Below, piece after piece: positions 3,476 to 51,019 of a stretch of DNA of 64,000 nt. The translations under genes were made by a program, and so were the position numbers. Source of the stretch: Paenibacillus amylolyticus (lineage in GTDB: Bacteria > Bacillota > Bacilli > Paenibacillales > Paenibacillaceae); NCBI RefSeq assembly GCF_029689945.1, contig NZ_CP121451.1:992001-1056000 (forward strand). Direction: 5' to 3'. The first letter of the stretch is position 1. Every line of letters starts with the position of its first letter. The notes beneath the pieces were generated by a model. That model was not told where the DNA came from. It worked only from the letters and a program-made list of their open reading frames with translations, and ran no database searches.

Positions 3476-5526
3476 TTATGCATTAAGACGTTGGCTTCGT
3501 TCCGCCATCATCCGGGTTATTGGTATTACCTTTTCCAGATTCGGAGACTCGTTTGGAATATCTCCGGCTGGTGGTTCAGGCGTTTCATCTTTACCTTGAA
3601 TACGAACACGCACATCACCGATGTTGTCGATGATCGGCTCTCCGCCTTCAGTTGGTGTGCCTTCACCATCATTGTCGTTCTCTGCTTTTGGAGTCAAGGA
3701 ACCTGTTTCGATCAATTGCTTGATCTGATCCATTTCCAACGTCTCTACCTCAAGCAAAGTTTGAGCAATCAAATGCATCTCTTTTGAATGTTTAACAAGC
3801 AAGTCTTTACATTTCTCATAACATTCATTAATAAAGCGTTGCATTTCCTGATCAATCTCATACGCAATGGAATCTGAGTAATTCTGTTCATGACCAATAT
3901 CCCGACCAAGGAATACCTGTCCTTGTGAACTTCCGAATTGCATAGGTCCCAATTTCTCACTCATACCGTATTCCATAACCATGCTGCGAACAATACCTGT
4001 CGCTTGCTGGAAGTCACTGTATGCACCAGTACCGATCTCTCCGATGAACAATTCTTCAGCTACACGACCTCCAAGAAGTCCGGTTACTTTATCCAACAGT
4101 TCCTGCTTGGTAACCAGCATACGGTCTTCTTTTGGCAACATGATTACATATCCACCCGCACGTCCGCGCGGAATAATGGTCACTTTATGTACCATATCAG
4201 CATGTTCGAGGAAGTATCCTACAATGGTATGGCCTGCTTCGTGATAAGCAACGATTCGTTTCTCACGATCACTGATGACACGGCTTTTCTTCTCCGTACC
4301 AACGATGACGCGGTCGATCGCTTCGTCAACTTCTTTCATGGAAATATCTTTACGATTACGACGTGCTGCCAGCAATGCCGCTTCGTTCAAGAGGTTCTCC
4401 AAATCCGCACCAGAGAAGCCTGTTGTACGCTTCGCGATAATATCCATCTTCACATCTTTGGTCAGTGGTTTATTCCGGGAATGTACCTTCAGGACAGCTT
4501 CACGACCTTTTACATCAGGGCGGTCAACCGTAATTTGACGGTCAAAACGTCCCGGACGCAGCAAGGCAGGGTCCAGAATATCTGCACGGTTCGTTGCAGC
4601 TACGATGATAATACCTTCGTTCGCTCCGAAACCGTCCATCTCAACGAGCAACTGGTTGAGTGTTTGCTCACGTTCATCGTGACCACCACCAAGACCAGCA
4701 CCACGCTGACGTCCTACAGCATCAATCTCATCGATAAAGATGATACATGGCGCATTTTTCTTCGCATTTTCAAACAAATCACGTACACGTGATGCACCGA
4801 CACCGACAAACATTTCTACGAAGTCGGAACCTGAAATACTGAAGAATGGTACACCCGCTTCACCGGCTACGGCACGAGCGAGCAACGTTTTACCGGTACC
4901 TGGAGGACCTACGAGCAATACACCCTTAGGAATCCGTGCACCTACTGCTGCGAATTTACGTGGGTCCTTGAGGAAGTCTACAACCTCAACAAGTTCCTGT
5001 TTCTCTTCGTCAGCACCCGCAACATCTTCAAATGTAACCCGCTTCTTCTCCTCGTTATAGAGACGAGCACGGCTTTTACCAAAGTTCATTACTTTACCGC
5101 CGCCGCCTTGAGCCTGATTGAACAGGAAGAAGAACAGCAGGAACATAATGATCAAAGGAATAAAGGAAGTCAGCAACGTCAACCAGATGCTGTCACCTTT
5201 CATTGGCTCCTGATGATATTGGAAATTGTTAGTTTCACTTGCAGCTACAAGCTCACTGATTGCCTCATCCGTAGGAGGAATATACGTTGAGAAATTTTCT
5301 GATTTGGCGCCATCGGGTGCCTTCTTGTATTGACCGGTCACGAGATACGTTTGACCGTTGAATTGAACCGTCAATTCAGAGACATTGTTGGCTTTGATCG
5401 CTGCACGCAACTGATCGTATCTAGGATTATCGGTGGCTTCGCCGCCATTGCTGACGAACTGGACTATCCCCACCACAACTAAAAAAGAATCAAATAAAAA
5501 CCAGAATTCCGGATGAACCGATTCAT
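3476..5526 (-). CDS. ftsH: ATP-dependent zinc metalloprotease FtsH (frameshifted near the start)
   Basis: Membrane-anchored AAA+ protease that degrades misfolded membrane proteins and regulatory proteins. The body is intact: second membrane helix near residues 115-136, Walker A GPPGTGKT near 207-214, Walker B FIDEID, the second region of homology with arginine fingers, and the zinc motif HEAGH near 430. The natural start is the ATG at 5526, with AGGAGG 5 bases upstream; it encodes [15 protein letters not shown], the classic FtsH first helix. That frame meets TAG right after a T6 run (A6 at 5481-5486 on the plus strand). One extra T joins it to LVVVGIVQF and the rest, giving 683 residues. An in-frame ATG at 5575 opens the downstream frame but encodes an N-terminus unlike FtsH and skips the good ribosome binding site. 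Likely a homopolymer error; slippage is the alternative. Confidence 0.93.
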
Positions 5527-5626
5527 CCCCTACCTCCTCTCGAGACACTTTAATTATTTTAACATAGCCCGACATGGCTTCTCAACAGAAGCCAAGAACA
5601 GCTCAAGGCTTGGGTCGGGCAGGATA

Positions 5627-6166
5627 TTAGCTGCTATAGACTTCCGGCTTCAAAATCCCGATATAGGGCAGGTTCCGGTACTTCTCCGCAAAATCCAAAC
5701 CGTAACCAACGATGAACGCGTCAGGAATGTCAAAGCCTGTGTAATGAGCTTCCAGCTCAACTTTACGACCTGAAGGCTTGTCGAACAACGTAACCACACG
5801 CACCGATTCGGCACCGCGGTTCTCCAGCAGTTCAATCAGATAGCTGAGTGTAAGTCCGCTGTCGATAATATCTTCGACAATCAGAACTTCCCGTCCTTCA
5901 ACGGATACATCCAGATCCTTAATAATTTTGACAACACCTGATGATTTGGTGGAAGCCCCGTAACTGGATACCGCCATAAAATCCATTTCAACAGGTACCG
6001 TTATGTTTTTAACCAAATCAGCCATAAATATAAACGCACCCTTGAGCACGCAAATGACCAAAGGATTGCGGTCTGCATATTCGGCACTTAGTGTTGCGCC
6101 TAATTCCTTGACTTTACTCTGAATTTCTTCTTCACTGATCAATACTTCCTGAATGTCGTTCTGCAA
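5627..6166 (-). CDS. hprT: Hypoxanthine-guanine phosphoribosyltransferase
   Basis: Purine salvage: hypoxanthine or guanine plus PRPP to IMP or GMP. The 179-residue protein has the PRPP loop [14 protein letters not shown] and the base-binding stretch [20 protein letters not shown]. The start is TTG at 6166: AGGAGG sits 9 bases upstream and no nearby ATG is in frame. It lies between tilS and ftsH, as in B. subtilis, where TilS and HprT also form a regulatory pair for ftsH. Confidence 0.96.
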
Positions 6167-6218
6167 CTGTGCGAACCTCCTAAGTTATACTATGAAAGCC
6201 TTACCTGAACCATAACCA

Positions 6219-7657
6219 CTACCCCTGAATCGCTGAATCGCCTACAGTCATGTACAGGATTGCGGAAGTGTCCTCCCTGACAGGAGCCACACTGGACCGT
6301 CGAACACCCGGTAACCAGATGATATGACCTGCTCCATTACATACCACAGGAATACGTGGACGGACAGATGGGGGATTTTCTCATCGATGAAAATATTTTT
6401 CACCTTTTTGCTTCCGTTTAATCCCATAACTTTCATGGTATCTCCAGGTAACCGTGAACGCACAACCAGCGGCAAAAGCAGTTGATCCGCATCAAATGCG
6501 GCTTGATCCGCCGATTCCGGTACATGATAGTCCTCGGGACTCACCGTCATCAACCGAATATACCGGTTAATTGGGGTGAGTGAAAGCTCATAAGTTCCAC
6601 TCCATTGCGCAAGACGATACTCGTAAGATTGATCCTGTACGTCCGTCCGTATGCCAAAAGAAATCAGATTATACTCCCGAGTGCAGGCGAGTGTCTGTCC
6701 TATATCCAGGCTCCAGGTCGTCACATGGGTCTCCATGACCTTGCGACGAATGGTTTCTATACGGGTAAAGTCGACAAAATCACTGTCCAAAGGCAGATAA
6801 TTCAATATTAGTTTAATCAACCTTCGTTGTAAAGCGACATGTAACTTCAAGAAGGAAGGCACCTCAAAGGTTTGCCTTCCGCCGTTCACCTGCACTAGAC
6901 ACCTGTATGTGTCATATGCACTCTGCTCCATGAAATCGTCTTCATCACCCACAATTTCGGCAAGCCGATTCAATGACGGCGTGAGTTGTCCATTATACTG
7001 CCCCAAAAAAGGAAGTACATCCAAGCGAATGGCATTACGCCGATATTTACGCAGGGCATTGCTCTCATCATTGAAATACGTAAAACCCTGGGTATTACAA
7101 GCTTCTACAAGGTCTGTCTTGTTTATACGAAGGCATGGACGAATAAGTTCCACATTTTTTTCTCGCCTTTTAAACTTCATTCCTGAGAGTCCCGACAAGC
7201 CGGTTCCACGAAGCAAATGAAGCATGACCGTCTCCGCCTGATCATCGGCATGATGTGCCAAAGCGATGCTTGCCGCATTATATTTGGAAGCTACTTCATG
7301 CAGAAAGGCATATCGCTTGTTGCGGGCCGCCTCCTGTGGTCCTTGACCCGTCAGATCCATATATGAAGGAACATCGGCCTTTGTCCATTCAAATGGAATT
7401 TCAAGCTGTTGTGCCAGTTCCATCATTTTATCCGCTTCATCATCCGATTCAGTCCGGAATCCATGATGCACATGGGCACAGATCAATTCAAGCGGGACAT
7501 GCCGCTTGCTGATCTCATGCATGATATGCAAAAAAGCCACCGAGTCCGGTCCGCCCGATACTGCGACGACAATCCGATCCCCGGGAACCCATAACTGATG
7601 CTCTTCCGCTGCATCCAGCACGTTATTCACCAGCATGTTCCAGCGTAAAGCCTCCAT
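6219..7657 (-). CDS. tilS: tRNA(Ile)-lysidine synthase (frameshifted near the C-terminus)
   Basis: Attaches lysine to C34 of the tRNA-Ile with CAU anticodon so that it reads AUA; essential in bacteria that need it. The N-terminal PP-loop motif SGGPDS is near residues 35-40, with AHVHHGFR and LAHHADDQAET following. The open frame ends at 6248 after an aberrant tail. In another frame the DNA encodes PSVRPRIPVVCNGAGHIIW followed by LPGVRRS, exactly the TilS C-terminal domain, ending at TAG 6219-6221. The switch point is a run of five C (five G at 6370-6374 on the plus strand) where six would be needed. Restored length is 479 residues. Confidence 0.93.
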
Positions 7658-9470: not shown

Positions 9471-11983
9471 TCAGCTGACGGTCCGTGGACGCTCCATCCG
9501 GTTGATGCCAGGCACACGCAGTGTGGCCCATTCAGGACGGAAATGCTCTACTTTTCCAACGACAACGGTCATATCATCCAAAATTTCATGCTGCTGATAT
9601 CTAATGACACTCTCAAGCAGGCAATCAGCCAAATCTTGCGGATCATCTGTATCAATCTCTTGAATGAGCCGTTTCATCCATAGCTCTTTGTTCACGGCAT
9701 ACCCCGGTGCATCATAGATGCCATCCGTCATCATAATGAGGATATCACCTGGTTGTAGCTGTACCGTCACCAGATCGACTTCAATATCTTTGATAATACC
9801 AATTGGCAAATTGCTGGCTGAGACTTGAATAACCTCCTGTCCTCGTTTGATAAAGCTTGGCGTCGATCCGATTTTCATAAAAGTGGTCTCTGCCGTATAT
9901 TCATCAATCAGCGCCATATCCACGGTGGCATACATCTCTTCAGGAGAGCGGAGCATCAGAACGGAGTTCACGGATTTGATCGCCAGTTTCTCGTCCATGC
10001 CGGACTGCAACAACTGTTCCAGTATGTTCAGCGCCGCGCTGCTCTCCATGCGTGCCCGTTCTCCATTGCCCATTCCATCACTGAGCGCCACCGCGAAAGT
10101 ACCATTGCCTAACTCCACTGTACTGAAGCTGTCGCCTGACATCACATCTCCCCCTTTTGCGGCGGCAGCAACACCCGTGGTCACCTCGAACGTTTTGGCT
10201 GAACCAAACGTAACGGTTGCCAGTCCCTGACGAGGGTCCGTCATGGTCTCATGCAGGACGGCGATATGTTCGTCCAATACATCCGATATCAGCGGAGCAA
10301 TCATTTTCCGGCACTCATCGAATCCACGTGTGTATGCATGTACAATCTCGATCTCCACATTGCCCGCTTCCAGATTGATTATCTCAATCGAGTGGATGGA
10401 CAAGCCCAGTGACTCCAATGCATCCCGAATCTGCTCCTCCTGCTGCACCATCTCCTCACTTTCCCGCTGAATTTCTTTGGCCAGGTCCTCCATGACCTGA
10501 GATACACCGGACAATTGCTCTGCAACCAGCTGCCGGCTATCGATAATCTGGCGTTTCCACTGCATATTATGTTGATGTAACCCATACTGGGCACGCATGA
10601 CCTCAAGGACCTCTTCCGGTTTTGCACACACCCTGTTCCATTCCACGGGAATCTGCTTGCCTGAGATCTCCGGGTTCCCTTCAATGGTGCTCATCACGTC
10701 GGTCATATATTTGTAGGTTTGAATAAACTTCGCATCCCAGCATTGCGTACGCTTGAAGCAGCTTGCACACGTGCCCTCGGCAACCGCATTCATGAAATGA
10801 TCCATCCCGCCTTCTTTCTGGATCGGTTCTCCCGCACCGGACATCTGATCGAAGCTGCGTGACAATTGACGGAATACCTGTGAGAACCGGGTCACCCGTT
10901 CTGCCGTGATATCCCTTATCCGTTTGGCATACTCATGCTGGGATTTCGTATGATCCTGCGTACCTGGTACATATTTGGATATCGCCGTCATCAAGCTCTT
11001 GGGGGTCAACATGAATAATACAATAGCAGCACACGTCTCCCATAATGAGTTCATAACATCGCCTGGTCCTCCCAGATATATGGATAGAATGGACGAACCC
11101 AGCAGCATGCCCAGTGCAACCGCCGCACGTTTGCCCTCTCGAAGCATACCCGCCAGCATCCCGGCAAAAGCAAGCAGGCTCATCTGATACACCGCTGACA
11201 TGTCAGCCAGACTCAGAATCAAGCCGGTAATGACACCAACCGAGGCTCCAAGGGGGCTCCGCCCACCAGCGCAAAGATTAATATGAGGTAACGGGAGAGC
11301 ATATGCTCGACGGACAAGGACTGAATGGTCCATCCAACAGCTCCCGTCATCACGGAAGCGAGTAATATGATTAGGCAGAGGATCTCCTCGTTCTTTAGGC
11401 TGAATTTCTTTTTGCGGTAGGTGAAGATCGGTATGGCTTGTATGAAAACAAGGGTGAGCACGAAGCTGAGTACCGAATCCATCGTGAGCATCAGCATGGC
11501 ATACCAGCTGAAGGATGGCCCGATCACAACGGCGAATAATTTGACCATAAATGTAGTCGTAAACACCATCGTTGGCGCATAAGATAATTCAGCACGATCA
11601 TACGACTCCAGTCCACGGAAGAGCAGATAAAAGATGGCGATCTCCGATGCAACAATGAGTGGTACGGGAAATGGTGCAAAGAGACTGCCTGCGAGCAGAG
11701 CGGCGCCTACCGGAATGATGTAATCCCTGCGCATGAAGGCAATTACGGCAAAGTATGCAATGGCAAAGGGAGATAACTCATTCAGGATCATTGCCTTTCC
11801 GAGCAGAAATCCCATAAACGTAAGCAGCAGTACCCATTTGCGGGAAGCAACCATTTGGACAGCCTTGCGGGAGCCCAGCCACTGTTTCAGACGTACCGAC
11901 AGCTCCTCCCGAGCTTCCGTACCTCCTTTACCTGCTTTCATTCCCGGAAATTGAATGACATTCCACTTTTCCATCATCCTCAA
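9471..11983 (-). CDS. spoIIE: Stage II sporulation protein E, PP2C phosphatase (frameshifted)
   Basis: Dephosphorylates SpoIIAA to release sigma-F in the forespore and works at the polar septum. The N-terminal 320 or so residues are strongly hydrophobic (about ten membrane segments). A central region with paired cysteines (CASCFKRTQC) follows, then a C-terminal PP2M domain with metal-binding aspartates in GDSFSTVE, SDGMGNG, MMTDGIYD and DDMTVVV. Two frames overlap near 11250; they join as GGAPLGASVGVITGL if the run of five C (G5, 11252-11256 plus strand) were six. Restored length about 837 residues. The start may be the TTG at 11983 or ATGs at 11977/11974; no spacing is clearly best. Confidence 0.93.
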
Positions 11984-14545: not shown

Positions 14546-14823
14546 TTACCAGTTCATCCCGTTATCCTTGGCGATCGGCTCTTCCTTCACCAAGGTGTAG
14601 AGGCTGCTCGCCTCATCCTTTTGGTACTCTCGGCAATTCGCTCCACCTTCACGGTAACCAGTTTCTGACCGAACTGAACCGTCAGCTCATCGCCTACTTT
14701 GACATTGGCGCTGGGCTTCGCTTCACGTCCGTTCACCAGAACACGTCCCTGTTCAGAGACGTCCTTGGCCACAGTGCGGCGTTTGATTAGCCGGGAGACC
14801 TTCAGGAATTTATCAAGACGCAT
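14546..14823 (-). CDS. rqcP: RNA-binding S4 domain protein RqcP (frameshifted at the end)
   Basis: S4-domain factor of the ribosome quality-control pathway; with RqcH it drives alanine tailing of stalled nascent chains. The S4 motif MRLDKFLKVSRLIKRRTVAK and LVNGREAKPS..KVGDELTVQFG are intact. The open frame stops at 14587 after an aberrant end. With one more A in the run of four (T4, 14619-14622 plus strand), the C-terminus becomes STKKDEASSLYTLVKEEP and ends at TAA 14546-14548, for 92 residues, close to the family's 86. The start ATG overlaps the hup stop by one base (TAATG). Confidence 0.93.
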
Positions 14824-17055: not shown

Positions 17056-18802
17056 TTAGCGCAGCACACGCAGTCTGCGCAGCAGCTTGGCCAGGCGAGG
17101 CCCCAGACTTGGGCACAGCCGTCAGTTCCGCGGCGGTCGGCAGCCCTGTCCGGGCCGCCGCCAGCAATAACACGGCTGAGCCTGCGGCAATGCCCAGCAG
17201 GCTCACGCCCATCGCGGCCAGCCTGCCATCGGCCGCGACCCCCATGCCGCCGAGTACGGCTTCGGCGGCCCAGGCAGTGCCTAACGCCGCCAGACTCATG
17301 GCGGCGATCACCAGCGCCGGCTTCGCCAGGACGGCGCCAGGGGCAGGGCGCAGGGCGACAAGTCGCGCCAGCAGCGCCACATTCAGGCCAGCCGCCAGCA
17401 TGTAGGCGGCTGCGCCTGCCAGGGCCGCGCCGCTGATGCCCAGCGCCGGCACAAGCATAACGTTTAGCAGCGCCTTGACGCCTGCGGCGGCCAGCATGCT
17501 AAACGCGGGTGCGCGCACGGCGCCGAGGCCTTGCAGCAGCGCCGCCGCAATAATGCTGACGGTGCTGCCCGAGCCGTCAGCGCCATGTACCGCAGTGCTT
17601 CGGTGCCTGCGGCATCTCCGTACAGCATGCGGTTAATCGGCTCCGCCAGCACCGCGAGACCCGCGGATGCCGCCAGGCCGATCAACCAGAACCAGCGCAG
17701 CGCGAGGCCTGCCTGCTGCCGGACGGCTTCTGGCCCGCCTTTTAACCGGGCTTCCGCCATCGCCGGAATAAACAACACGGACAGTGACGTGGCCAGCATC
17801 GTCACCAGTTGAACCAGCGGCAAGCCACGGTTGTAGATGCCGAAGGAAACCATGGACTGGAGTTCATCCAGTCCTTCTCCCCGCAGAAGCCGTGGAACAG
17901 TGAAGGTGTCCACCAGATTCATCAGCGGTACGGCCAGCGACCCAAGACAGACGGGAATGGCGTACATGAGAAGCGTCCTGATCCACTCACCGTTGGATCG
18001 TGTTCGTTCTGCCAGAGCGGGGTTATTAGCCCTCACCGTTTTCAACTGCGGCGTAATCGACCCATGTTGATGATGATTATGCCCATCTGTTCTAGTCTCC
18101 CCGCCTTCACTGCTCCATGCTGAATCCAAACGTCCCGTTCCCACTTCCTTGCCTTTCCGCCGGTGACGGACCAAGTATCCTAACATGGTAACAGCCCAAC
18201 CAATCCACCGGCAACGGAGCCCATCATGGCTCCAGCGGCAATCGTTTCAAGCGAAGCTTCCCGTCTCATCAACCACAGAAGCAGAACAATCATGACGGTA
18301 ACACGTATCGTCTGCTCCACCACTTGCGATACTGCTGTTGGCACCATCTGCTGCAAGCCCTGAAAATATCCACGCAGTCCTGTCATCACCGGAACGAACA
18401 ACAAAGCCCACGAAGCTGCACGAATGGATGGAACCACATGGCGATTGCCAATGATGTCAGCGATCAGCGGCGCACCTGCATACATCAAGATTCCCATAAT
18501 GAACCCAATCCCACCAAGCAGCATGGAAGATAACCGGATAATCCTTCTGCTCTCGTTCGGTCTTCCAAGTGCATTCTGTTCCGCTACGAATTTGGATACG
18601 GCCAGAGGCAGTCCGGCAGCAGCAAGCGTAACCATGAGCATATATAACGGGTACACCGTATTGTAAATGCCAAAAACACCGTCTCCCCCAGATTCTGCAA
18701 CGGAATCTTCTGAAAAGCACCAATGATTTTGGAGATAATGGCGGCAAGCCCAAGCACAAATGCACCCTGTAGCAGCCTTGAGCCTGTAGACGGCTGTTTC
18801 AT
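17056..18802 (-). CDS. Polysaccharide/lipid flippase, SpoVB-MurJ (YabM) family (four indels)
   Basis: MATE/MOP-type membrane exporter of the YabM/SpoVB group, presumably moving a lipid-linked cell-wall precursor. The coding region is split over four frames that join at: G6 read as five (C5 at 18685-18689 plus strand), giving LQNLGGDGVFGIYNTVYP; one base missing near 18186-18193 (VGLL-TMLGYLVRHR); one missing near 17573 (ALTASGSTVSIIAAALLQG); and one extra G in CCCC 17101-17104, restoring the end GPRLAKLLRRLRVLR before TAA 17056-17058. The corrected length is 582 residues and a whole number of codons. GGGAGG lies just before the ATG at 18802. The last 600 bases are markedly GC-rich and the protein there is Ala-rich. 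A genuine decayed gene is possible, but the pattern matches indels elsewhere in the window. Confidence 0.85.
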
Positions 18803-18923
18803 AAGTTCCTCCCATATGTATCCTGGCATTCAAAAAGAAGCACAAAGCATTCTTTTGTTATTATACCTGCCAGAAGACACAGAGACGAATTCCTGGATCA
18901 ACAATCAAACGATTATAAAAAGC

Positions 18924-19843: not shown

Positions 19844-21004
19844 TTATTTACTGCTTGTACCTTCATCTGTCTTTGCATCTTTATCTGTGCCAGTCGTACC
19901 TTGGTCCGTCTTGGTATCTGTACCTTTGGAGTCATCCGTTGTTGGTTCGGTTGTTTTCTCTCCTTCGGTTCCTGTACCCGTTGTACCCTCAGTCGTACCT
20001 TCCGTTGTGCCTTCTTCAGCTTTTTCTGTTTTCGGCAGTTTCACTTCTTTTACGATTTTGTCCAATTCATTTTGCATGAACGTATCGATCTCAGCAGCGG
20101 CCAATTGGCTCTTCAGGCTTTCTTTTTGCTCAGCCGTCAGTTTGGTGAAGTCTGCTTCTGTACGAGCTTCCACTTTCATAATGTGGTATCCGTACTCCGT
20201 TTCAACTGGATCACTGATTTTGTTCAGCGGCAATGTTTTGGCAGCTTCCTTGAATGCCTCTACCCAGCTGCCTACAGGTGTTTCTTCATACAGTCCACCC
20301 TTTTCAGCAGAACCTGGATCTTCGGAATATTCTTTTGCAATTTCAGCAAAATCAGCTCCACCATCCAACTTGGCTTTTACTTCTTTTGCAATTTTCAGTG
20401 CATCTTCTTTTTTACGCTCTTTTTGCGTTTTTGGATCTGTGAAGTTAATCAACACGTGGCGAACGGAAGCTGTTGTGAACTGATCTTTGTTTTTCTCAAA
20501 CTCAGCTTTGACTGCATCTTCTGTAACGCCTGTTTCTTTGTCTTTAATCACTGTCATGATTCGAGTCATATAGTCTTTAATGTTATCGTCTGTCAAATTC
20601 TGAGCTTTGAGCATTTCCGTCCATTGATCTGCCTGAACAGAAGCTTTCATTTTATCGAATTGCTCGGTTGCCGCTTTGGCACCCGCTGTTTTGGCTTCTT
20701 CACTTGCTTTGCCACTCAAATATTCATAGGCAACTTCCTGTTTCACCAGATATTCTTTGAAATCGTCCATATCCATCATTTGTGCATACTCCGGATAGAG
20801 GAATTTCATGACACGTTGCTCCATGTCGAATTCATTGGCTGTAATGGTACCACCTTCATACGTAGCGACTACAGCACTCGTATCCGTCGATTCAGGTGTT
20901 TTTGCTTCTTCCTTCTTGCCACAAGCAGCAAGCAGTGATAAGGAAAGTACTGCAACCATACTTACTGATAGTACCTTTCCTACTTTTTTATACTTTGCTA
21001 ACAT
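19844..21004 (-). CDS. PrsA-like foldase lipoprotein (PpiC-type peptidyl-prolyl isomerase)
   Basis: 386 residues. A lipoprotein signal peptide with lipobox LLAAC puts the mature Cys at about residue 28, so the protein is anchored outside the membrane. A SurA-N-like helical region follows. The parvulin domain is near residues 180-275 (SVRHVLINFTDPKTQKE, FAEIAKEYSEDPGSAEKGG, PVETEYGYHIMKVE). The last 55 residues are a Thr/Glu/Asp/Gly-rich low-complexity tail with TEGT repeats, perhaps a wall-spanning linker. It should help fold exported proteins. The start overlaps the mfd 3' end by 17 bases; AGGGGG precedes the ATG. Confidence 0.9.
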   Translation of the reverse strand: MLAKYKKVGKVLSVSMVAVLSLSLLAACGKKEEAKTPESTDTSAVVATYEGGTITANEFDMEQRVMKFLYPEYAQMMDMDDFKEYLVKQEVAYEYLSGKASEEAKTAGAKAATEQFDKMKASVQADQWTEMLKAQNLTDDNIKDYMTRIMTVIKDKETGVTEDAVKAEFEKNKDQFTTASVRHVLINFTDPKTQKERKKEDALKIAKEVKAKLDGGADFAEIAKEYSEDPGSAEKGGLYEETPVGSWVEAFKEAAKTLPLNKISDPVETEYGYHIMKVEARTEADFTKLTAEQKESLKSQLAAAEIDTFMQNELDKIVKEVKLPKTEKAEEGTTEGTTEGTTGTGTEGEKTTEPTTDDSKGTDTKTDQGTTGTDKDAKTDEGTSSK

Positions 21005-24515: not shown

Positions 24516-24693
24516 AAGGGGCACCTCTCTTATAACTTACTTGATTATCTCACGCATACGCGTAGCATCACTATTAAAATGGATACAAATTCCTTTTTGT
24601 CCTGTTTCATCATATCGGATTACTCGCAACATTGCCACATCTGTTGATGCGGCTAAGCCTAATTTTGAGCTAGTCATGGCTTTCATGCCAACT

Positions 24694-24788: not shown

Positions 24789-25018
24789 CTACTGAAGCGG
24801 ACTCGCGAGCAGGCTAAGCTCCGGATTGTGCTCCAGGGCTTCTTTACAGTAATCACATGTAATCCGAACGGTAATGTCACCACCGGAATTATACGCTATT
24901 ATATCCCTCCGCTCGTCGGGGTCAAGAAATGAAAGCCAAGCTCTGCTTCCGTTATTCGGGCAGAATCAATTCGTCCAATAAATGTACGGCAATGCCTACA
25001 TACGTAATTCACTGACAT
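24789..25018 (-). CDS. fin: Anti-sigma-F factor Fin (frameshifted)
   Basis: Small zinc-ribbon protein that shuts off sigma-F and helps the switch to sigma-G in the forespore. The two metal-binding pairs are CRHC at residues 7-10 and CDYC near 55-58. From ATG 25018 (AGGAGG 7 bases upstream) the frame hits a stop after 40 codons. If the C4 run (G4, 24918-24921 plus strand) had five C, the protein continues DERRDIIAYNSGGDITVRIT, then CDYCKEALEHNP, and ends at TAG 24789-24791. The corrected length is 76 residues, the same as B. subtilis Fin (YabK). Gene order pth-fin-mfd supports the identification. Confidence 0.88.
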
Positions 25019-25117
25019 GTTTATGCCTCCTGAACATGGTTTATACGTCCAGTATGTCCAGTATGGCTGAATTGAACCCGTCTTCTTATGATCATTTTAC
25101 CAGGTTATCTTACAGAA

Positions 25118-32276: not shown

Positions 32277-33172
32277 TCACACTGCCGACGGGTTCACTTT
32301 TAGCGTAGATAAATCATTCAGCCCTGGCAGACCTACCCGGTAACTCCCCCGTGTCTCGACACCACCCACACCTTGGCTGCCACTGATGGTATTGTGCAGG
32401 ACATCACTCATGTTAACCGTATCCCGCACAGATGTGAAGGAAGCCTTGGCTGCCACATAGACCGGATCAAGTGCATGAATGAGAATTCGGCCTGGAGAGC
32501 TGGCAAAATTCGCTCCAGCGCGCAGCAGTGCCTCAAAATGGGACTGACAGGCACCTGCCACAATAGTGAGTGCGTCCAGATGACGTTCATATTGCCTAGC
32601 CACCTGAATGGCGGCCACAAAATTTTGCGAGTTCTTATAACTACCAAGACTATATAAGTCATAAGGCTGACGTGTCTTTAGCACCCCATCATGACCCGTA
32701 ATGACCACGATATCCGGACGCACTTTGGGTAATAAACGGTATAAGGTATCCGCCATTGCCGATTCATGGACATATTGTCCCTCTGCTGGCACACGAAGTT
32801 GCTCATAGAGATCCATACTTTTTTTCAAATAGTTCGGATCACCATCCAGATGAAGCACCTTTCCAGGCATTTCAAAATAAGCCGGTTCCTGCTGAGCAGA
32901 CCAATCCTGTGCCAGACCTTCACGATTCCGCTCAGCCTGTTCCATACGATTCTGCTGCAGACGGGACAGGGTCTGATGAGCTTTAATATGCGCCTGCCTT
33001 GTCTTCGCGCTTTGTGGTTCGTAGGGAACCTGTATCAAGTCGTCCACCGGGGAATCGGCAAGAGCTGGAACTCAGTCCCTTTAATGACCGCAGCATCCAA
33101 CTGGAGGCCTTCCACCCGAAAAGTCACATCGCCGCCGTATGACTTCCGAACGACCAAGTCTCCGATATTCAT
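32277..33172 (-). CDS. yabG: Sporulation-specific protease YabG (frameshifted)
   Basis: Processes spore coat proteins in the mother cell. The main part contains FEMPGKVLHLDGDPNYLKKS, VVITGHDG, AGACQSHFEALLRAGANFAS, SPGRILIHALDPVYVAAK and GGVETRG, all family signatures. The N-terminus MNIGDLVVRKSYGGDVTFRV starts at ATG 33172 (AGAGGTGAT 9 bases upstream) in another frame and joins at LLADSPVDDLIQVPY if one G is added at 33058-33059. Restored length is 298 residues (B. subtilis about 290). A sigma-K-like promoter precedes it. Confidence 0.92.
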
Positions 33173-33192
33173 CAACGTAATCACCTCTACCC

Positions 33193-33231: not shown

Positions 33232-34682
<1,451 letters not shown>

Positions 34683-36284: not shown

Positions 36285-36548
36285 ATTCATGCACGAGGTT
36301 GCCTCTCTTTTCCGCTTGCGAGGTTAGCTGTCGGGTTCGGGCGAAAGAGAGCCGCCCTATCTTGGGTCACCCGCTCATGGCGGACGCCCTTGAATTCACC
36401 CCGAGACCCAAAGAAGAAATCAAATACGGCTTCGCAGTTCCCTCAGCTGCTTTTGGGTCAGCGAACGTTGCGCATCGGCCAAATACACCGATGTTTAAGC
36501 CCTATTGGTTCCCCCGCTCTCCGTTAACGGAGACTCAGCGAGACTGAT
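36285..36548 (-). ncRNA. c-di-AMP riboswitch (ydaO/yuaA class)
   Basis: The minus strand shows the conserved blocks of this aptamer in order: GAGCGGGGGAACCAA, GGGGTGAATTC, GCCCGAACCCGACAGCTAAC and CCTCGCAAGCGG followed by AAGAGAGG. c-di-AMP binding would favour the downstream terminator and turn yabE off. The segment between the GGGGGAACC and GGGGTGAATTC blocks is about 105 bases, longer than in the B. subtilis examples I know, and probably forms an extended stem. A plus-strand open frame of 93 codons over this stretch is a shadow. Confidence 0.9.
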
Positions 36549-36638
36549 TCATGAAAGTAATGTTGTTTCATCGGAAAGTGTCCCTTTGTTCATCCCCGAA
36601 CATCTGTCCAATTTTCCGCACAACAATTCACTGAAAAG

Positions 36639-36790: not shown

Positions 36791-37560
36791 TTAACGAATT
36801 CCAAATCGTTCCATGGCATTTTTGGTGGTTATTGCAGCAATTTCCTCCACCGAAATGCCTTTAATTTCCGCAGCTGCCTCTGCAACCAGACGTACATGCG
36901 CTGTCTCATTTCGTTTCCCGCGATAAGGGTGAGGTGTCAAATACGGAGCATCGGTTTCGATGAAAAATCGGTCCATAGGAACCTTCGCCAGCACCTCTTT
37001 GGGTTGCTTTGCGTTTTGAATGTAATCGGTCCTCCGAAGGAGAGATGGAAGCCCATATCTAGACAACTTTTCGCTGTTTCCCAGCTGCCCGAGAACGAAT
37101 GCATCACACCACCAACTTCACTCGCCTTCTCTTCACGCAAAATTTTTACGATATCCTCATGTGCATCCCGATTATGGATGACAATCGGCATGTTCACTTC
37201 ACGTGCCAAAGCAATTTGTTGTCGTAATACGCGATGCTGTATTTCCTTCGGTGAAGTATCCCAGTGATAATCCAATCCAATCTCACCGATAGCAACCACT
37301 TTTTCATGCTTGCATAAAGATGCAATCCACTCCAGATCGCCCTCCTGCATTGTAATCGCATCGACGGGATGCCACCCTACAGCTGCATAAATAAAGTCAT
37401 ATGTCTCAGCAAGTTTCATTGTCGTTGGAATCGTCTCCCGGTTAAAGCCAATGTTGATCATGCGACCAACCCCTGCATCCACAGCACGCTGAATCATGTC
37501 CTCACGGTCCTCGTCGAATTGTGGTGCATCCAGATGTGTATGTGTGTCGAACAGCATCAT
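36791..37560 (-). CDS. tatD: TatD-family deoxyribonuclease (frameshifted)
   Basis: Metal-dependent amidohydrolase-fold nuclease. FDTHTHLDAPQFDEDR with the HxH pair, AVGWHPVD, GEIGLDYHWD with the bridging Glu, NMPIVIHNRDA, GVMHSFSGSWE, then after the shift MDRFFIETDAPYLTPHPYRG with the metal Asp. The frames join at GPITFKNAKQPKEVL if the A4 run (T4, 37014-37017 plus strand) had five A. Restored length is 256 residues, the family norm. ATG 37560 has AAGGGAG 9 bases upstream. The usual upstream neighbour metS is replaced by a YwfO-type gene. Confidence 0.93.
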
Positions 37561-37892
37561 GTTTGTATCTCCCTTCATGTCGAAATAACGACTATCTTCT
37601 GTTGAAAATTCAATTTGTAAAATTCAATAATTCATGGACTCCTACATAAAACATTTTGGGTAATCTGTTTATTACCTCATTCCGTTTGTTTCTTCACAAC
37701 TACAATATATAGAAGAAAGACGGATATTCGGATCTATATATTGCTGATTGTACCCATTTGGCCTGCTTATATTTACAAAATTATGTCGATCTACATATAC
37801 GCCCCATTAAAGCAGATTACTGTATCATGAAAAATAGCTCTTTTAGAAAGTCTTTTGATCCCGAAATTCTTCATTGGATTATACCCACAGGA
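37561..37892. other. Gap between the HD hydrolase gene and tatD
   Basis: 332 AT-rich bases without a convincing gene. Inverted copies of TACGCCCC and GGGGCGTA lie at about 37798 and 37905, the second just inside the 3' end of the HD gene. No clear terminator or promoter was found by eye. Confidence 0.4.
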
Positions 37893-39487: not shown

Positions 39488-39742
39488 ATGATGAAATCAA
39501 CAGGTATTGTAAGAAAAGTGGACGAACTGGGACGGGTAGTTATTCCAATCGAATTGCGCCGTACGCTCGGTATTGGTGAAAAAGATGCTCTGGAAATCTA
39601 CGTTGATGGCGAGCGCATCATGTTGAAAAAATATGAGCCTGCTTGTATCTTCTGTGGCAATGCAGAGAACGTTACTTATTTCAAAGGTAAAATTGTTTGT
39701 AACGAATGTATTTCCGAAATCCCTGCACCTGTGACAAAATAA
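39488..39742 (+). CDS. abrB: Transition-state regulator AbrB
   Basis: DNA-binding repressor of post-exponential genes, lifted when Spo0A-P rises. 84 residues: STGIVRKVDELGRVVIPIEL is the swapped-hairpin DNA-binding part. A C-terminal half with CIFCGNAENV and VCNECISEIP carries a CxxC pair twice, as in the short zinc-ribbon-like AbrB version. GAGAGGAG lies upstream of two consecutive ATGs; the first gives better spacing. One of few plus-strand genes, divergent from ywfO. Confidence 0.95.
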   Translation: MMKSTGIVRKVDELGRVVIPIELRRTLGIGEKDALEIYVDGERIMLKKYEPACIFCGNAENVTYFKGKIVCNECISEIPAPVTK

Positions 39743-42183: not shown

Positions 42184-42983
42184 TTACTTGATAACGACGT
42201 CATCCAGCGGAAGTTCTTTGACTTTACTGATGTCGAACAATTGAACATGGACTGTGCGGCTACCGGCATTAATTCCGACAACTTTTCCTTCACCCAACGA
42301 GGTGACGACCAATTTGCCTACAGCTGGCAGTTCTTCTCTCACACTTTCATAGTTATCATGCTCAAATTTCAGACAGCACATGAGTCTTCCGCACAACCCT
42401 GAAATTTTCGTCGGATTCAGTGACAGGCTCTGATCTTTAGCCATCTTGATTGATACCGGCTCAAAGTCTCCCAGCCAGGAGGAACAACACAACACACGGC
42501 CGCAAGGTCCGATTCCGCCAAGCATCTTCGCTTCATCACGTACACCAATCTGTCTCAGCTCGATTCGTGTCCGGAATATGCTTGCCAGATCCTTGACCAG
42601 CTCCCGGAAGTCGACTCTTCCTTCAGCTGTAAAATAAAATATGATTTTATTGCGATCAAACGTAAATTCCACATCGACCAGCTTCATTTTGAGGCCATGG
42701 TCTTTGATTTTATTTAAACAAGTACCGAATGCTTCCTTCGCTGCACGCTTGTTCTCATCAACCACACGAGCATCGGTCTCGCCCGCAACTCGGATGACTT
42801 TCTTCAGCGGCAGCACCACATCGGACTCGCCCACTTCCTTCTTACCAACAACAACCTTACCGTACTCTACCCCCGCGCTGTCTCCACGATAACGCAGTTT
42901 TCTTTCTCAATGGGAAGGTCCAGGGGATCGAAGTAATAAATTTTGCCCGCTTTTTTGAAACGGACACCCACTACACTGTACAA
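42184..42983 (-). CDS. ricT: RicT (YaaT), Fe-S-associated PSP1 domain protein (frameshifted)
   Basis: Member of the RicA-RicF-RicT (Y-) complex that supports RNase Y processing and Spo0A phosphorelay. TTG 42983 (AAGGGGG 8 bases upstream) starts YSVVGVRFKKAGKIYYFDPL. That frame meets TAG after VETARG. Adding one G to the run of five (C5, 42870-42874 plus strand) yields ARGVEYGKVVVGKKEVGE and the rest. Cysteine motifs GPCGRVLCC and GLCGRLMCCLKFE are present. Corrected length is 266 residues. Follows holB as in B. subtilis. Confidence 0.94.
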
Positions 42984-43100
42984 AAAATTAACCCCCTTGT
43001 AAGCCAACCCCACTTCGTCTGAAGCCCCGTCTTCTTAGGGGAACGGTCGAAGTTATAACCGTTTGCATATGATTGGAACTAACGTATCCCTCTCCCAGTC

Positions 43101-44870: not shown

Positions 44871-45215
<345 letters not shown>

Positions 45216-46114: not shown

Positions 46115-46807
46115 TCAACCGTAGATCATCCATACCCATAATGGAAGCATAATTGATCCGGCAATGGCACTGACAATCATGGATACTGAACTGAGGGCTA
46201 CTGCATTCTCTCCATATTCAAAAGACCTTGCCATGCCGAGGGCATGAGATGCGGAGCCCAGTCCAATACCATAGGCATTTTTACTGCGGACTTTGGCCCA
46301 TTTTAAGAGCATCGGCCCCAGTAATATTCCTGAGAAACCTGCAATCATCACAAATAATGATGTAAATGAGGCATTCCCGCCAACTTGATTAGCAAGTTGA
46401 ATAGCAACAGGCGTTGTCACGGATTTCGGCAATAAAGCGATGACCATCTCTTGAGGATAGCCAAGCAGAATGGCGATCAAAGCACCTGTAGACACACCTG
46501 TAATACTTCCTCCAATCGTTCCTCCAATAATTGGAATGATGTTTTGTTTCAGCACATGCAGATGTCTGGACAAGGGAAAAGCGAGAGATACAACTGCTGG
46601 GCCCAAGAGTTCCTGTATCCATTTGCCACCCAACATATATGTGTCCAGCTTTATACCGGAAATTACTAGGATTAGGATTAGTATGGCAGTCGTTGTGAGT
46701 ACAGGCATAAGTATCGGCCATTTCAGCCTTTTATATAGACGAGTGGCTGGAATATATACAGCGATGGTTAGCGCGATCATTCCAATTCCGAGGATGAATG
46801 CTGACAC
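46115..46807 (-). CDS. lrgB: LrgB/CidB-type membrane protein
   Basis: 230 residues with about seven hydrophobic segments; GGTIGGSITGVSTGALIAIL and LLPKSVTTPVAIQLANQVGG are family signatures, as is GLGSASHALGMARSFEYGE. Partner of LrgA in holin-like systems that affect autolysis or pyruvate/metabolite transport. It overlaps lrgA by 31 bases. Not part of the B. subtilis tmk neighbourhood, so an insertion in this lineage. Confidence 0.9.
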   Translation of the reverse strand: MSAFILGIGMIALTIAVYIPATRLYKRLKWPILMPVLTTTAILILILVISGIKLDTYMLGGKWIQELLGPAVVSLAFPLSRHLHVLKQNIIPIIGGTIGGSITGVSTGALIAILLGYPQEMVIALLPKSVTTPVAIQLANQVGGNASFTSLFVMIAGFSGILLGPMLLKWAKVRSKNAYGIGLGSASHALGMARSFEYGENAVALSSVSMIVSAIAGSIMLPLWVWMIYG

Positions 46808-47205
46808 GTGATCGCCTCCTTTTTACCTGAATGAGACAATCTCCATGACATGAGCCACTCACTTAATTTGGCAGATACCAGACATGTGATTAATGTGCTA
46901 ACGATCAAACCAAGAACGAGTAACAAGGTGTTTGCTCTAAAGAAATCAAAATGATTAATAATGCCTACCGTTGGCGGGATGAACAACAATTGCAGATGAG
47001 ATTGAAGCCATGTCGAGCCTTCCTCTCCCCAACTCATTTTGACCCAACCCAGTTGAATGGTGATAAACAACACCAGCATGCCGACAATACTGCCTGTTAA
47101 CGGCAGATGCAATACAGATTGAATCAAGTTTCCAATCCAATAGAAACCGTACATCAACAAAACCTGCAGGACTATTCCTGTATATTTTTTTAGCGGAATA
47201 CCCAA
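46777..47205 (-). CDS. lrgA: LrgA/CidA holin-like protein
   Basis: 142 residues with four membrane helices in the first 120 (VLLMYGFYWIGNLIQSVL, PLTGSIVGMLVLFITIQLG, LLFIPPTVGIINHF, LLLVLGLIVSTLITCLVSA) and a soluble His/Ser-rich tail. PLTGSIVGM and FIPPTVGI are typical. The TTG start at 47205 has AAGGGAA 7 bases upstream. Co-transcribed with lrgB. A LytTR-type regulator is not seen beside it. Confidence 0.88.
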   Translation of the reverse strand: MGIPLKKYTGIVLQVLLMYGFYWIGNLIQSVLHLPLTGSIVGMLVLFITIQLGWVKMSWGEEGSTWLQSHLQLLFIPPTVGIINHFDFFRANTLLLVLGLIVSTLITCLVSAKLSEWLMSWRLSHSGKKEAITCQHSSSELE

Positions 47206-47718
47206 AGTGTTCCCTTCTTTCTTATGTCTATCTCTTTACGTTGAAATAGAGCGTGTCTTCAAATCTGCCGAAGCCGGAACGCAATTGAACGTGTCTGGAG
47301 CAGACCATGGAGCGGGAGCGATAACGACCCTGTGACGTCTTATTCAGCGATTTGATGCACCCACAGCAATTGAGGGAATCTGAGACAAGCTATATTGAAA
47401 TAACCAGCTGTTTAGAGCGCATTTGTTAGGTGACTTTGATTAATAACGTGTCTCAGGTTCCTTACAAAACAAAAGGAGGACTCGAAGGCTAAATAAGACG
47501 TCCTCGGTTCCTTAGAAAATGGTCTGGACTATTCGCCAGGATCAGCAATCCTTGACTTCAAGATGTTGACCCTGACATCCTTCAACGTATTGCATGCCTG
47601 AGTTTGAAGATACACCTGGCAACTAGATTAATGACCAAGAGACCCTCACATGTGTAGGGTCAAGTATTGGTATTGATCATATAGACTACCTAATGCAATT
47701 CAGTTTTTCATCTTTCCT
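47206..47718. repeat. Non-coding stretch with palindromic, degenerate repeat units
   Basis: No gene in 513 bases. 47375-47462 has facing ends GGAATCTGAGACAAGCTAT and (minus strand) GGAACCTGAGACACGTTAT, 15 of 19 matching, around an 88-base unit. 47476-47505 has GAGGAC / GTCCTC. The phrase GGTTCCTTA-AAAA recurs at 47456 and 47506, 50 bases apart. A GACCCT / AGGGTC hairpin lies at 47641-47661. It looks like a dispersed intergenic repeat. Confidence 0.55.
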
Positions 47719-49560
47719 TCAATCCTGCATGACCTTTAATACCTTTAGCGATGCATCTGATACCCCATGAAACTTTGCTCCTTCATCGCGCAGGAGTTGC
47801 ATACGTGCCACCATCGATGGACTTATGCGTTCACCGGGATATACAAGCGGAATCCCTGGAGGGTATGGAATGACCATCTCAGCTGATCGACAGCCTGCGC
47901 TTTCTTCTATCGGGATATTAATTGTATCGGTATCCACAATCGGTTGAAGTGTAAAGGAGATCGGTTCCGAGTAGGGCGTGTGTTCTTGTAAATTGTTCCA
48001 CGTGGAAATATAATTCGCCGAACCTTTCGCAAGCTGATGTGACGACTCTGCATTGGATTGATCCTGCTCATGTCCATCGGCAGAGCTGATCTGGTGTAGA
48101 GCCTGCAACAGGTGCTGAGCATCTTGCACCGTTGAGCCCAGGCTGAAGAGCAAGACGACGTATCGTTCGTCGCTCATCTCGGGCACACAGCCGCATGCTT
48201 CCAGCTGCTGCTGTAGCCCATAACCGCTCAGCACCCCTGCGCCGTCATAGATGACGGCCTTGAATGGGTCCTGAGCGGTATACCCCGCGGCGGATGGCAT
48301 CGCCGCCGCGGTCAGGCCATCCCGTGTCTGCTGCGCAGCGGACACGGACAGGGACAGGCCAGCCGGCTTCGCTGTTCCGGCTGGCGGTTCCGGCTGCAGC
48401 GGCTGTGCAGGCTGCAGCAATTGAAAGCGCGGCAGACTCCGCGAGGCCGCACTTAAAAGCGTTCACGGCGGCGAGCCCCGCCGTGAATGTGTTCGCGCCC
48501 TGCATATGCAGCAGCCGACGCGCCAGATCAAGCGAAGCCATCACCGGGTATGATGGGCTTGAGCTTTGCACCATGGCCAGGCGCTGCCTTAACAGGGACC
48601 GGTTTAACCGGGGTCCCTGAATGTGCAGCATGGCACCCATGGTGAAGGCCGTCAGCATCTTATGCGTCGACTGCACAACACCGTCTGCTCCGCACGACAG
48701 TGCTGAGACAGGCAGCTCCGGATGCTGCCCATAATGCGCGCCATGCGCTTCATCCACGAGCAATGGCATGCCAGCAGCGTGGCACACCTCGGCGATGGGC
48801 GTCAGATCAGCGCCCATGCCGTAATAATTGGGCAACGTGACGAGTACGCCCTTTGCCTCAGTATAGGACTGGACAGCTGCCTGAACCGTCTCCACCGACG
48901 GCATGACCGCAAGTCCAGACGCAGGATCAACCCACGGCTCCAGAAATACAGCTCTTGCGCCGGCCAGCATTAACCCGTGAATAACGGATTTGTGTACATT
49001 CCGTTGTACGAGCACAATACTGTTCGGCTCATCACACACGGTGAGCAGTAAGGACAGATTACCAGCCGTACTGCCTCCCACAAGGAAGAAACTCTCCTCG
49101 GCTCCAAAACAATCTGCCGCAAGCTCCTGCGCTTCCTGAATCACACCTTCCGCATGATGCAAATCATCGGTGCCCGTAATCTCCGTAACATCCATCTCCA
49201 TCATCTCCAGGAATGAACGAACCGGTACCAGCTCTATTTCGGAGCGGCCTCCTTCATTGTCATAAGTTTTCCCACTCTCCGGGTCAGCACCATATTCATC
49301 TACCGATCTGCGAAGCTCTACCCTCTGGTTATCCTTTTTCCTTCACCGTTCCCAGTCTCTGTGTTAAGCGGGGATTCCGCATTAAACATATCCTTCATAT
49401 TCGTAACAGAAGATTGTTCCGATTCTGCTTCTTCCACCAACTGTCGGTAAGCTTGTCCATTTTTATGCCCAGGCACATGAAAAGAACGCTGCTTTGAATC
49501 ACGATACGCAAGCAACGCTTCATATAAAGGGGCTCTACTTGATTTAGTGTTATGATCCAT
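47719..49560 (-). CDS. yaaO: Orn/Lys/Arg decarboxylase-family PLP enzyme, YaaO type (two indels)
   Basis: Fold-type I PLP enzyme; substrate unknown, basic amino acid by family. N-terminus APLYEALLAY, SFHVPGHKNG; middle part TGTDDLHHAEGVIQEAQELA, GGSTAGNLSLLLTVCD, LLVDEAHGAHYGQHPELPVS and the PLP-lysine motif VVQSTHKMLTAFT; C-terminal domain with YPPGIPLVYPGERIS. The coding sequence changes frame at GGG 49321-49323 (needs GGGG on the coding strand) and near 48431 (one base extra or two missing). Restored length is about 613 residues, longer than the usual 480-490. About 70 extra residues lie between PGHKNG and TGTDDLHH, and the GC-rich, Ala-rich section near 48.3-48.5 kb adds more. Confidence 0.85.
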
Positions 49561-49733
49561 GAAATAACCATCCTGTACATATATAATGTGCGTTCGATGC
49601 GCTCTTGAATGCTTCTATTCCTAAGAACACCTTTTTCCCAACTCCATACGCGCTCACTGCTAATTGTCTATATCATAATATCAGCATACGCCTTCCTAAT
49701 ATGGCAGACAAGACTCTCTCTCATAAAAACAGA

Positions 49734-49811: not shown

Positions 49812-49997
49812 TTATGCGTTTTTTTGTACCCAGATTTGCTTCATTTGATGAATAAAATAATTGTACTTGGCATCCTGCGCATCGGTATGAACCATCTCTG
49901 CTTCACAAGCATCACATATGAATTCAGATACAATAAAAATGCCTTCTTTTTTTCTTTGCTCGCAAATAATACATGTGTGTTCGGCATGTTCTTCCAT
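49812..49997 (-). CDS. csfB: Anti-sigma-G factor Gin (CsfB)
   Basis: Small forespore protein that binds and holds sigma-G (and sigma-E) inactive. 61 residues with two zinc-type pairs, CIIC at residues 9-12 and CDAC near 28-31, and EGIFIVSEFICDACEAEMV as in the family. The ATG at 49997 has AAGGTGG 7-8 bases upstream; an earlier GTG lacks a site. It stands between the rrn side and yaaO, as in B. subtilis. Confidence 0.93.
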   Translation of the reverse strand: MEEHAEHTCIICEQRKKEGIFIVSEFICDACEAEMVHTDAQDAKYNYFIHQMKQIWVQKNA

Positions 49998-50028
49998 GAA
50001 CCATCCCACCTTGTTTTACGTTTACTAT

Positions 50029-50058
50029 CAGTATTGCACAGTTTCTATTATTTTATAC
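50029..50058 (-). promoter_or_regulatory. Sigma-F-like promoter of csfB
   Basis: Minus strand GTATA (50054-50058), 15 bases, TGCAATACTG (50029-50038), close to the sigma-F pattern GYATA and GGnnAnAnTR. csfB is a sigma-F gene in B. subtilis. Confidence 0.5.
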
Positions 50059-50495
50059 ATTTTCATAGTGCTTTCTTTCTATAAAATATATATATTCGCC
50101 CACCCCCTCCGGGGTGTCTGTACCGAAAAATACATTCATGCTTCTTATAAAAAGCCTTCTCTCTGCTCAAATCTACACAGGTATCCTGCATCCATCGCAT
50201 TTTCCTATAAATCGCGTATACCGTAGCCTGGCTCAAAACTTATATTCAAATTTCTTAAAAAAACTTGGAATCTCAGCCGATATATAATACATGATAACGA
50301 TATCATAGCCTGACAGTCCGTGCATTCGAGAGTATACTGAGATAAGCTCAGTTGAATCTCAATATCTTTTACAATCGTTAGGTGATATACAAGGTTCATA
50401 TATACATACAGGATTCATTCCCATTTACACGTGTAAGAAACCAAACGAATACCTATCCCGCACAAACGTGAATTTGAAGGAGGATATATAATCGT
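50059..50495. other. Divergent gap between csfB and the orphan membrane-protein gene
   Basis: No gene. Short perfect palindromes: ATGATA/TATCAT (50291-50306), CTGAG/CTCAG (50337-50351) and TTACACGTGTAA (50425-50436), possibly operators for the downstream gene. A CACCCC/GGGGTG hairpin lies near 50101-50116. Confidence 0.4.
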
Positions 50496-51019
50496 ATGAT
50501 CGCCGAACCGGAGAATAAAGCAACATTTTATCAGTACCGGCTCTTGAAAAAAAAGGCTATCGCCCGCAGCGTCATCTATAGTTATCTGTGCCTGCCGGTC
50601 ATCATGCTCTTATTCAATCTGCTTGCATTCTCCTGGACGGGCCTCTTCTTTTTGTACTGGCAGGCCCAATCACCATCTGGATTCATTATGTCATCGCCAG
50701 AACGATATTACTTCTGGTACGTACCTCATATGCCAAACGGTGGCGCTGGAATCTGCGTATGCCCTGGTTGGGTTATATCCCTGATCAGCATTTCAGCTTC
50801 CGTATGTTTGTCCGGGTACACCTTAACATGAGTTGGATTGGACTATGTATCATTACAGTGTGTTTAATATGGTCGCCATTGTCCTTCACCCTCTCGCTGA
50901 TCTTCTGGCATTTATGGTTGCTGGGCCCTCGCTTATATGTGGTAATGGTACTCTCCCGCGAGCGCAAAGATGGACTCATCAAATTAAATGAACAAGATGT
51001 ATCATACTATCTGCAATAA
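50496..51019 (+). CDS. Orphan integral membrane protein (frameshifted)
   Basis: I do not recognise a family. From ATG 50496 (AAGGAGG upstream, spacing about 13) the first frame gives a basic N-terminus and a hydrophobic segment SVIYSYLCLPVIMLLFNLLA, SWTGLFFLYWQ. It then loses frame; adding one G at 50663-50664 continues GPITIWIHYVIARTILLLVR, a basic loop, HLNMSWIGLCIITVCLIW, SPLSFTLSLIFWHLWLLGP and a soluble end EQDVSYYLQ. About 174 residues with four membrane helices. It is on the plus strand, against its neighbours, between csfB and the rrn operon. Confidence 0.65.

Follow-up and report, generated by a model that had tools for sequence, protein, structure and literature searches.

The genome assembly deposited for Paenibacillus amylolyticus (GCF_029689945.1, here G000) raises the question of whether a series of broken genes was lost by the strain or damaged in the sequence. 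The stretch concerned, called the window below, is the 64 kb at G000:C1:992001-1056000. A first-pass annotation made from its letters alone had claimed frame-breaking length changes at 16 sites and read them as homopolymer miscalling. Our results indicate, with a probability of roughly 0.97, that these frameshifts arose as consensus errors in a long-read assembly that was insufficiently polished, most likely one of Oxford Nanopore R9-type. Six predictions of homopolymer miscalling were tested, and the sequences showed all six: an excess of deletions, dependence on run length, damage to ribosomal RNA (rRNA) genes, disagreement between duplicates, unrelaxed selection on the broken genes and recurrence in like assemblies.

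Genome and sequences compared

G000 consists of 6.83 Mb in three contigs, C1 with 6,824,844 bases and two others with 3,533 and 3,943 bases. Contig C1 (6.82 Mb) is that of a Paenibacillus near P. xylanexedens; the product of window positions 20988–24524 was 99% identical to that of P. xylanexedens and its kin. Besides protein genes, the window contains one rRNA operon and a c-di-AMP riboswitch. The window was compared with five relatives of 93–95% identity (G023, G016, G022, G011 and G008), four of which are in one or two contigs. Up to 16 additional sequences (L009–L023, and L069 from the relative OVF10) were available for positions 10988–34524. As L012 and G008 come from one genome, the resulting 21 sequences represent at most 20 genomes.

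The five-relative alignment covered 62,903 of the 64,000 window bases. It left out positions 50553–51399, where the one site was aligned separately, and it left out G008 to the right of position 51000, so that the rRNA genes were compared with four relatives. A coding set of 45,922 bases was built from open reading frames (ORFs) of the relatives that were intact in at least three other relatives and were chosen by the analyst. Six doubtful small ORFs were removed from it, of which the one at 39488–39742 may be a real gene, and the intervals of rqcP and fin were set by hand.

Frame-breaking changes at the 16 sites

The affected features are given below with their window coordinates. "Short" and "longer" describe the window relative to the sequences compared.

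3483–5526, minus strand: ftsH (TIGR01241 in the G023 orthologue); one base short at ~5481 in an A/T run and one short at ~3529, with 5/5 relatives longer at both.
6219–7657, minus strand: tilS (TilS domains); one short at ~6370 in a G/C run, 5/5 relatives.
9471–11983, minus strand: spoIIE; one short at ~11250 in a G/C run, with 18/19 sequences longer, the exception being L069 (OVF10).
14587–14823, minus strand: rqcP (S4 domain, PF01479); one short at ~14621 at no long run, with 21/21 sequences longer.
17056–18812, minus strand: flippase; one longer at ~17106 (21/21 sequences agree), one shorter at ~17572 (21/21), ~18189 (18/18) and ~18685 (20/21).
24789–25020 (approximate), minus strand: fin (NF053765); one short at ~24918 in a G/C run, 21/21 sequences.
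32277–33184, minus strand: yabG (TIGR02855); one short at ~33063, 21/21 sequences.
33232–34156, minus strand: rsmA/ksgA (TIGR00755); two bases short at ~33628, 21/21 sequences.
36298–36550, minus strand: c-di-AMP riboswitch (RF00379, 76.8 bits); one short at ~36308, with 5/5 relatives longer but not OVF10.
36791–37627, minus strand: tatD (TIGR00010); one short at ~37014 in an A/T run, 5/5 relatives.
42184–43013, minus strand: ricT (NF041131); one short at ~42870 in a G/C run, 5/5 relatives.
47719–49608, minus strand: yaaO (PF01276, PF03711); one longer at ~48436 (5/5 relatives) and a net one short at ~49334–49341.
50496–51019, plus strand: membrane protein in two ORF pieces; one short at ~50648 in a T run, 5/5 relatives.
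52392–55314, minus strand: 23S rRNA; one short at ~53841, 54095 and 54573, with 4/4 relatives longer.
55630–57180, minus strand: 16S rRNA; one short at ~56628 in GGGGG, with 4/4 relatives full.

All 16 of the claimed sites showed a net frame change against the close relatives. Fourteen had been placed exactly or within about six bases; all five relatives agreed there, and none of the five (0/5) had the change of the window at any of these 14 scored sites. Nine of the 14 lie within positions 10988–34524, where the additional sequences also agreed, except L069 at spoIIE and at 18685. The remaining two sites were real but misplaced. In the membrane protein gene, all five relatives differed from the window near 50648 and none did at 50663–50664, where the change had been put. 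In yaaO, the net change claimed for 49321–49323 was found in a diverged stretch at about 49334–49341, and the values of G022 and G008 there shifted with the alignment used. Three sites had been said to need one base removed or two added, and this was observed: the window was one base longer near 17106 and 48436 and two shorter near 33628. The claim of at least twelve conserved genes also stood, with 12 genes affected, the unnamed site near 33625 falling in rsmA/ksgA. The original list lacked the second ftsH change, four changes in rRNA genes and one in the riboswitch.

When compared with the orthologues of close relatives, the ORF pieces in two frames together spanned most of the relatives' proteins; in tilS, for instance, the two pieces correspond to residues 1–429 and 438–479 of 479. 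Domain searches agreed with the names FtsH, TilS, YabG, TatD, RicT, Fin and SpoIIE, and SpoIIE domains were present in both spoIIE pieces. They also supported an S4-domain protein for rqcP and an Orn/Lys/Arg decarboxylase for yaaO. The name flippase was upheld as well: the protein is SpoVB/MurJ-like and scored above the cutoff of PF01943, but below that of the SpoVB model TIGR02900. The membrane protein (174 amino acid residues in G023) had no family match in the domain searches. With four one-base changes in 1.76 kb, the flippase gene had the most of any protein gene in the window; it is also variable among the relatives.

Excess of indels and dependence on run length

The window contained 70 private insertions and deletions (indels) over the 62,903 aligned bases, compared with 14–32 in each relative. 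Its private one-base deletions numbered 34, those of the five relatives 3–8 each, and the corresponding insertions were 12 and 4–13, giving 46 private one-base indels for the window and 11–21 for each relative. Private substitutions were equal in number in G008 and the window (1151 each), so branch length does not explain this excess. In the coding set, private one-base indels numbered 16 in the window, 1 in G023, 1 in G016, 0 in G022, 2 in G011 and 1 in G008. The rRNA genes had 4 in the window and 0 in the four aligned relatives.

The dependence on run length was measured over 464,000 bases, of which 408,857 (409 kb) were aligned with G023 and G016, chunks with large gaps being skipped. That errors are mostly deletions was confirmed here: where ten identical bases were required on each side, 62 deletions and 15 insertions were counted in G000, and under the same filter two relatives had 5 + 4 and 3 + 4. 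Runs were scored if they were equal in both relatives and had eight matching bases on each side. G/C runs were short in G000 in 4/1459 cases at length three, 3/387 at four, 9/72 at five and 8/14 at six, which corresponds to shortening rates of 0.3, 0.8, 12.5 and 57%. A/T runs of five to eight bases were short in 4/175, 5/68, 5/25 and 2/5 cases, and one seven-base A/T run was longer. In the mirrored control, which was limited to runs of equal length in G000 and the other relative and so misses those that are wrong in G000, one run of at least five bases differed in G023 and two differed in G016. In the region of the window, six-base G/C runs of G016, G022 and G011 were whole in 3/3 cases each when compared with other relatives.

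A second region of 340,000 bases, of which 290,075 were aligned, was compared with G023 alone. G/C runs of four, five and six bases were short in 9/230, 10/53 and 0/3 cases, and A/T runs of five to eight bases in 2/123, 8/43, 3/10 and 1/3. The second region agrees with the first except for the six-base G/C runs.

The first-pass annotation had also stated that errors concentrate in runs, which held for half of the 16: in the relatives, eight sites fall in runs of at least five bases and eight fall elsewhere. At five of the out-of-run changes (window 17572, 18189, 33063, 33628 and 48436) the relatives have GCAGC. Over 464 kb, GCAGC had indels in 10 of 647 occurrences, compared with 0.39% for 5-mers lacking a three-base run, and in a fresh 340 kb in 3 of 414, compared with a background of 0.36%. 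If out-of-run errors marked modified bases, they would map a new GCAGC-like DNA methylation motif of the strain, an idea that we regard as improbable. A methylation motif was not established, as four of the ten indels lie beside C runs of at least three bases and the excess was not confirmed in the fresh region; no methyltransferase was searched for. Parts of PMC8486125 list CAG among the patterns that follow out-of-run deletions in nanopore reads, and such a pattern would account for GCAGC without methylation. At G000:C1:869411, a one-base deletion outside runs lies within a perfect palindrome, and hairpins could be another setting in which errors arise.

Ribosomal RNA genes and duplicated sequences

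All 12 copies of the 16S rRNA gene in G000 are one G short of the GGGGG in ACGTAGGGGGCAAGCG, which is full in four relatives, and the window copy has a gap against the Rfam consensus at this place. We take this GGGGG, near 56628, to belong to the 530-loop region. Ten of the 12 copies of the 23S rRNA gene were aligned; a length filter removed the remaining two, in which the match is split by an insert. Among the ten, one change was found in 10/10 copies, one in 9/10, one in 4/10 and eight in single copies. In a six-G run, one of the ten copies has a G that is absent from the other nine. Since copies of these genes normally stay alike, a difference confined to one copy points to misreading.

The 23S copies also suggest that one spot is naturally variable. 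An insert of about 130 bases, which presumably is an intervening sequence, was present in two of the 12 copies (L127:2965-3099 and L133:11397-11531) at the hairpin GATGC-AAA-GCATC. At this hairpin, near window 54095, the ten other copies lack one base that four relatives have. Because the insert lies at the same place, the spot was taken to vary naturally and was not counted as an error. Furthermore, insertions of 11 and 44 bases at window 52263–52332, in the 5S-23S spacer, have no counterpart in four relatives.

The small contigs C2 (L139) and C3 (L140) are near-identical duplicates of chromosomal stretches. All three differences between C3 and its chromosomal copy are run lengths. The eight differences between C2 and its chromosomal copy are five indels, three of them at runs, and three substitutions; these may be partly real should C2 be a genuine second copy. 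The two contigs are probably assembly leftovers, not plasmids. They were considered as spike-in DNA or plasmids, an origin that was rejected since both duplicate chromosomal sequence; C2 had no match in a phage collection and C3 none in a plasmid collection.

Extent of gene breakage and selection on the broken genes

Over the 464 kb, 280 G023 ORFs of at least 150 amino acid residues were intact in G016 and matched in G000. In G000, 186 of these were intact, 75 were split and 19 were otherwise shortened. No gene was split in two controls, whose sets were preselected as intact in G000 (0/182, with two otherwise shortened, and 0/186). The genes for Rho and IMP dehydrogenase (rho and guaB) were in pieces in G000 and whole in G016; names were given to 10 of the 32 longest ORFs listed. 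The affected genes include those for 16S and 23S rRNA, tilS, rho and guaB, some of which are essential. The completeness of G000 was 95.84%, and 21 of 23 genomes of the same genus were at 99–100%. Low completeness was rejected as proof of error, as the other two were at 92 and 94; it is supportive at most.

Selection was assessed from codon changes relative to G023 in ten broken genes, that is, all but rqcP and fin, with the membrane protein contributing 19 codons. The window had 541 synonymous and 160 nonsynonymous changes, a nonsynonymous share of 0.228; the shares for the same genes were 0.243 in G016, 0.177 in G022, 0.165 in G011 and 0.184 in G008. The relaxed selection expected of real pseudogenes was thus not seen in these ten genes (0.228 vs. 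0.243 in G016). Synonymous to nonsynonymous ratios in the window were 158:3 for spoIIE, 63:1 for ksgA, 9:0 for ricT and 44:3 for ftsH. Those for the flippase (76:47) and yaaO (81:76) were lower, and nonsynonymous changes in these two are also high in the relatives. The broken genes are still under purifying selection; truly lost genes would drift.

Changes in common with OVF10

Shared frameshifts in relatives had been named as grounds for abandoning homopolymer miscalling. OVF10 (CP094668; L069 and L240–L242) matched the window at six of the 16 sites, namely in ftsH, tilS, spoIIE, the flippase (18685), ricT and the membrane protein, and had the length of the relatives at the other ten. The riboswitch and one 23S site of OVF10 had the length seen in the window as well. 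All six common sites are runs of six or seven bases in the relatives. As parts of PMC9145963 describe, OVF10 was sequenced as native DNA by nanopore on an R9.4.1 flow cell, with Guppy 4.3.4 and Canu; the main text of that paper, in which polishing was not looked for, does not contain the word Illumina.

Gene breakage in OVF10 was counted over 45 window genes, seven small ORFs being dropped and rqcP and fin left out. OVF10 had 22 broken genes, including the one at 20988–24524, and G000 had 10, G016 2, G022 0 and G011 0. In this count ftsH is whole by a 93% rule, and one gene broken in G000 (46777–47262) is short in G016 too. In the same region, OVF10 was short at 6/6 six-base G/C runs, 6/12 seven-base A/T runs and 1/14 five-base G/C runs. 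Among 102 runs of at least five bases scored in both assemblies, 11 were changed in G000, of which six were also changed in OVF10 (Fisher p = 0.0017); this overlap mostly restates the run-length effect, since longer runs fail more in both assemblies. OVF10 is 97.3% identical to G022 and 97.0% to G011, both of which keep full runs, and 94.8% to the window. Because OVF10 is closer to strains with full runs, the overlap tracks runs and not the tree. OVF10 is, in effect, a positive control for nanopore-type error.

Weighing the explanations

The direct basis for consensus errors is the pattern of changes, the rise with run length, the hits in rRNA, the disagreement between duplicates, the selection on the broken genes and a like signature in a nanopore assembly; which platform was used, how the signal misleads and whether each single site is an error are inferred. 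In the proposed mechanism, a run of identical bases would change the pore signal little, so that its length would be under-called. Most reads would err alike, and averaging would leave the run one base short, which in a coding run would appear as a frameshift. A further portion of errors would arise outside runs. The living strain would then be expected to have intact ftsH, tilS, spoIIE and others.

Several observations weigh against this explanation. The case is built on assembled sequences. Half of the 16 sites are outside runs of five or more bases, and six-base G/C runs were intact in 3/3 cases in the second region. The completeness of G000 is low, yet other genomes of the genus are lower still. 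The shortfall in all 12 copies of 16S could also come from gene conversion, and the 16S of OVF10 carries the full GGGGG run. The change in all ten 23S copies at the insert hairpin may be a natural difference. Five-base G/C runs were short in 1/14 cases in OVF10 vs. 4/16 in G000. Finally, the six changes common to OVF10, taken alone, would suggest inherited mutations.

A rival explanation is real pseudogenisation in a decaying or mutator lineage, and the changes do stand in the deposited sequence, six of the 16 being common to OVF10. Such a lineage, however, would have broken 75 of 280 conserved genes, rho and guaB included, and its 16S and 23S rRNA as well, while purifying selection persisted, as in spoIIE (158:3) and ksgA (63:1). 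Moreover, OVF10 is nearer to G011 and G022 (97.0–97.3% identity), whose runs are full, than to the window (94.8%). Loss of the genes by the strain is therefore very improbable. It would be even more surprising if the frameshifts were real and whole proteins were still produced by programmed ribosomal frameshifting or transcriptional slippage. Several sites are runs of A or G, which are prone to slippage, but the relatives have an open frame without need for it, long runs are lacking at half of the sites, and slippage gives no account of the shortfalls in rRNA, in the riboswitch or between duplicate contigs.

Sequencing errors could also have come from another platform, such as poorly polished PacBio continuous long reads, 454 or Ion Torrent, all of which produce run-length errors. 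The single contig of 6.82 Mb with 12 16S genes, however, would need long reads. In addition, the deletion bias and the rise with run length resemble the R9.4.1 assembly of OVF10 and what is described in parts of PMC8486125, and another platform is accordingly unlikely, although poorly polished PacBio continuous long reads might still give such a picture. Parts of PMC12007338 report run-length errors for PacBio circular consensus sequencing too.

Significance and comparison with known systems

Taken at face value, about a quarter of the 280 sampled conserved genes of G000 (75) would be broken, and its 16S rRNA would have a lesion in a conserved loop. This calls for caution in annotation, in studies of gene loss and in 16S reference sets. 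Moreover, a frameshift common to a relative does not prove descent if the two assemblies could have been made on similar machines. The artefact was soundly spotted from the raw sequence; it is ordinary and already well known. According to parts of PMC8011154 (Homopolish), systematic nanopore errors are chiefly homopolymer indels that shift frames, and R9.4 genomes polished with Racon-Medaka had 151–5298 pseudogenes. Run length tends toward underestimate above about five bases in nanopore reads, as stated in parts of PMC8486125.

Similar to the nanopore-only assemblies described in those parts of PMC8011154, G000 contains frame-shifting homopolymer indels; different from them, its platform is inferred and half of its 16 sites are outside long runs. 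In parts of PMC12007338, false deletions make up most indel errors; they mainly follow runs of an identical base, a minority lying outside runs, and in all these respects G000 is alike. More deletions were counted there at A/T runs, whereas the rate in G000 at equal run length, a different measure, was higher in G/C. G000 also resembles OVF10, in which a similar signature spans the region of the window and six of the 16 sites show an identically shortened run; OVF10 differs from G000 in its worse breakage (22/45 vs. 10/45), in having fewer five-base G/C runs short and in its full 16S GGGGG.

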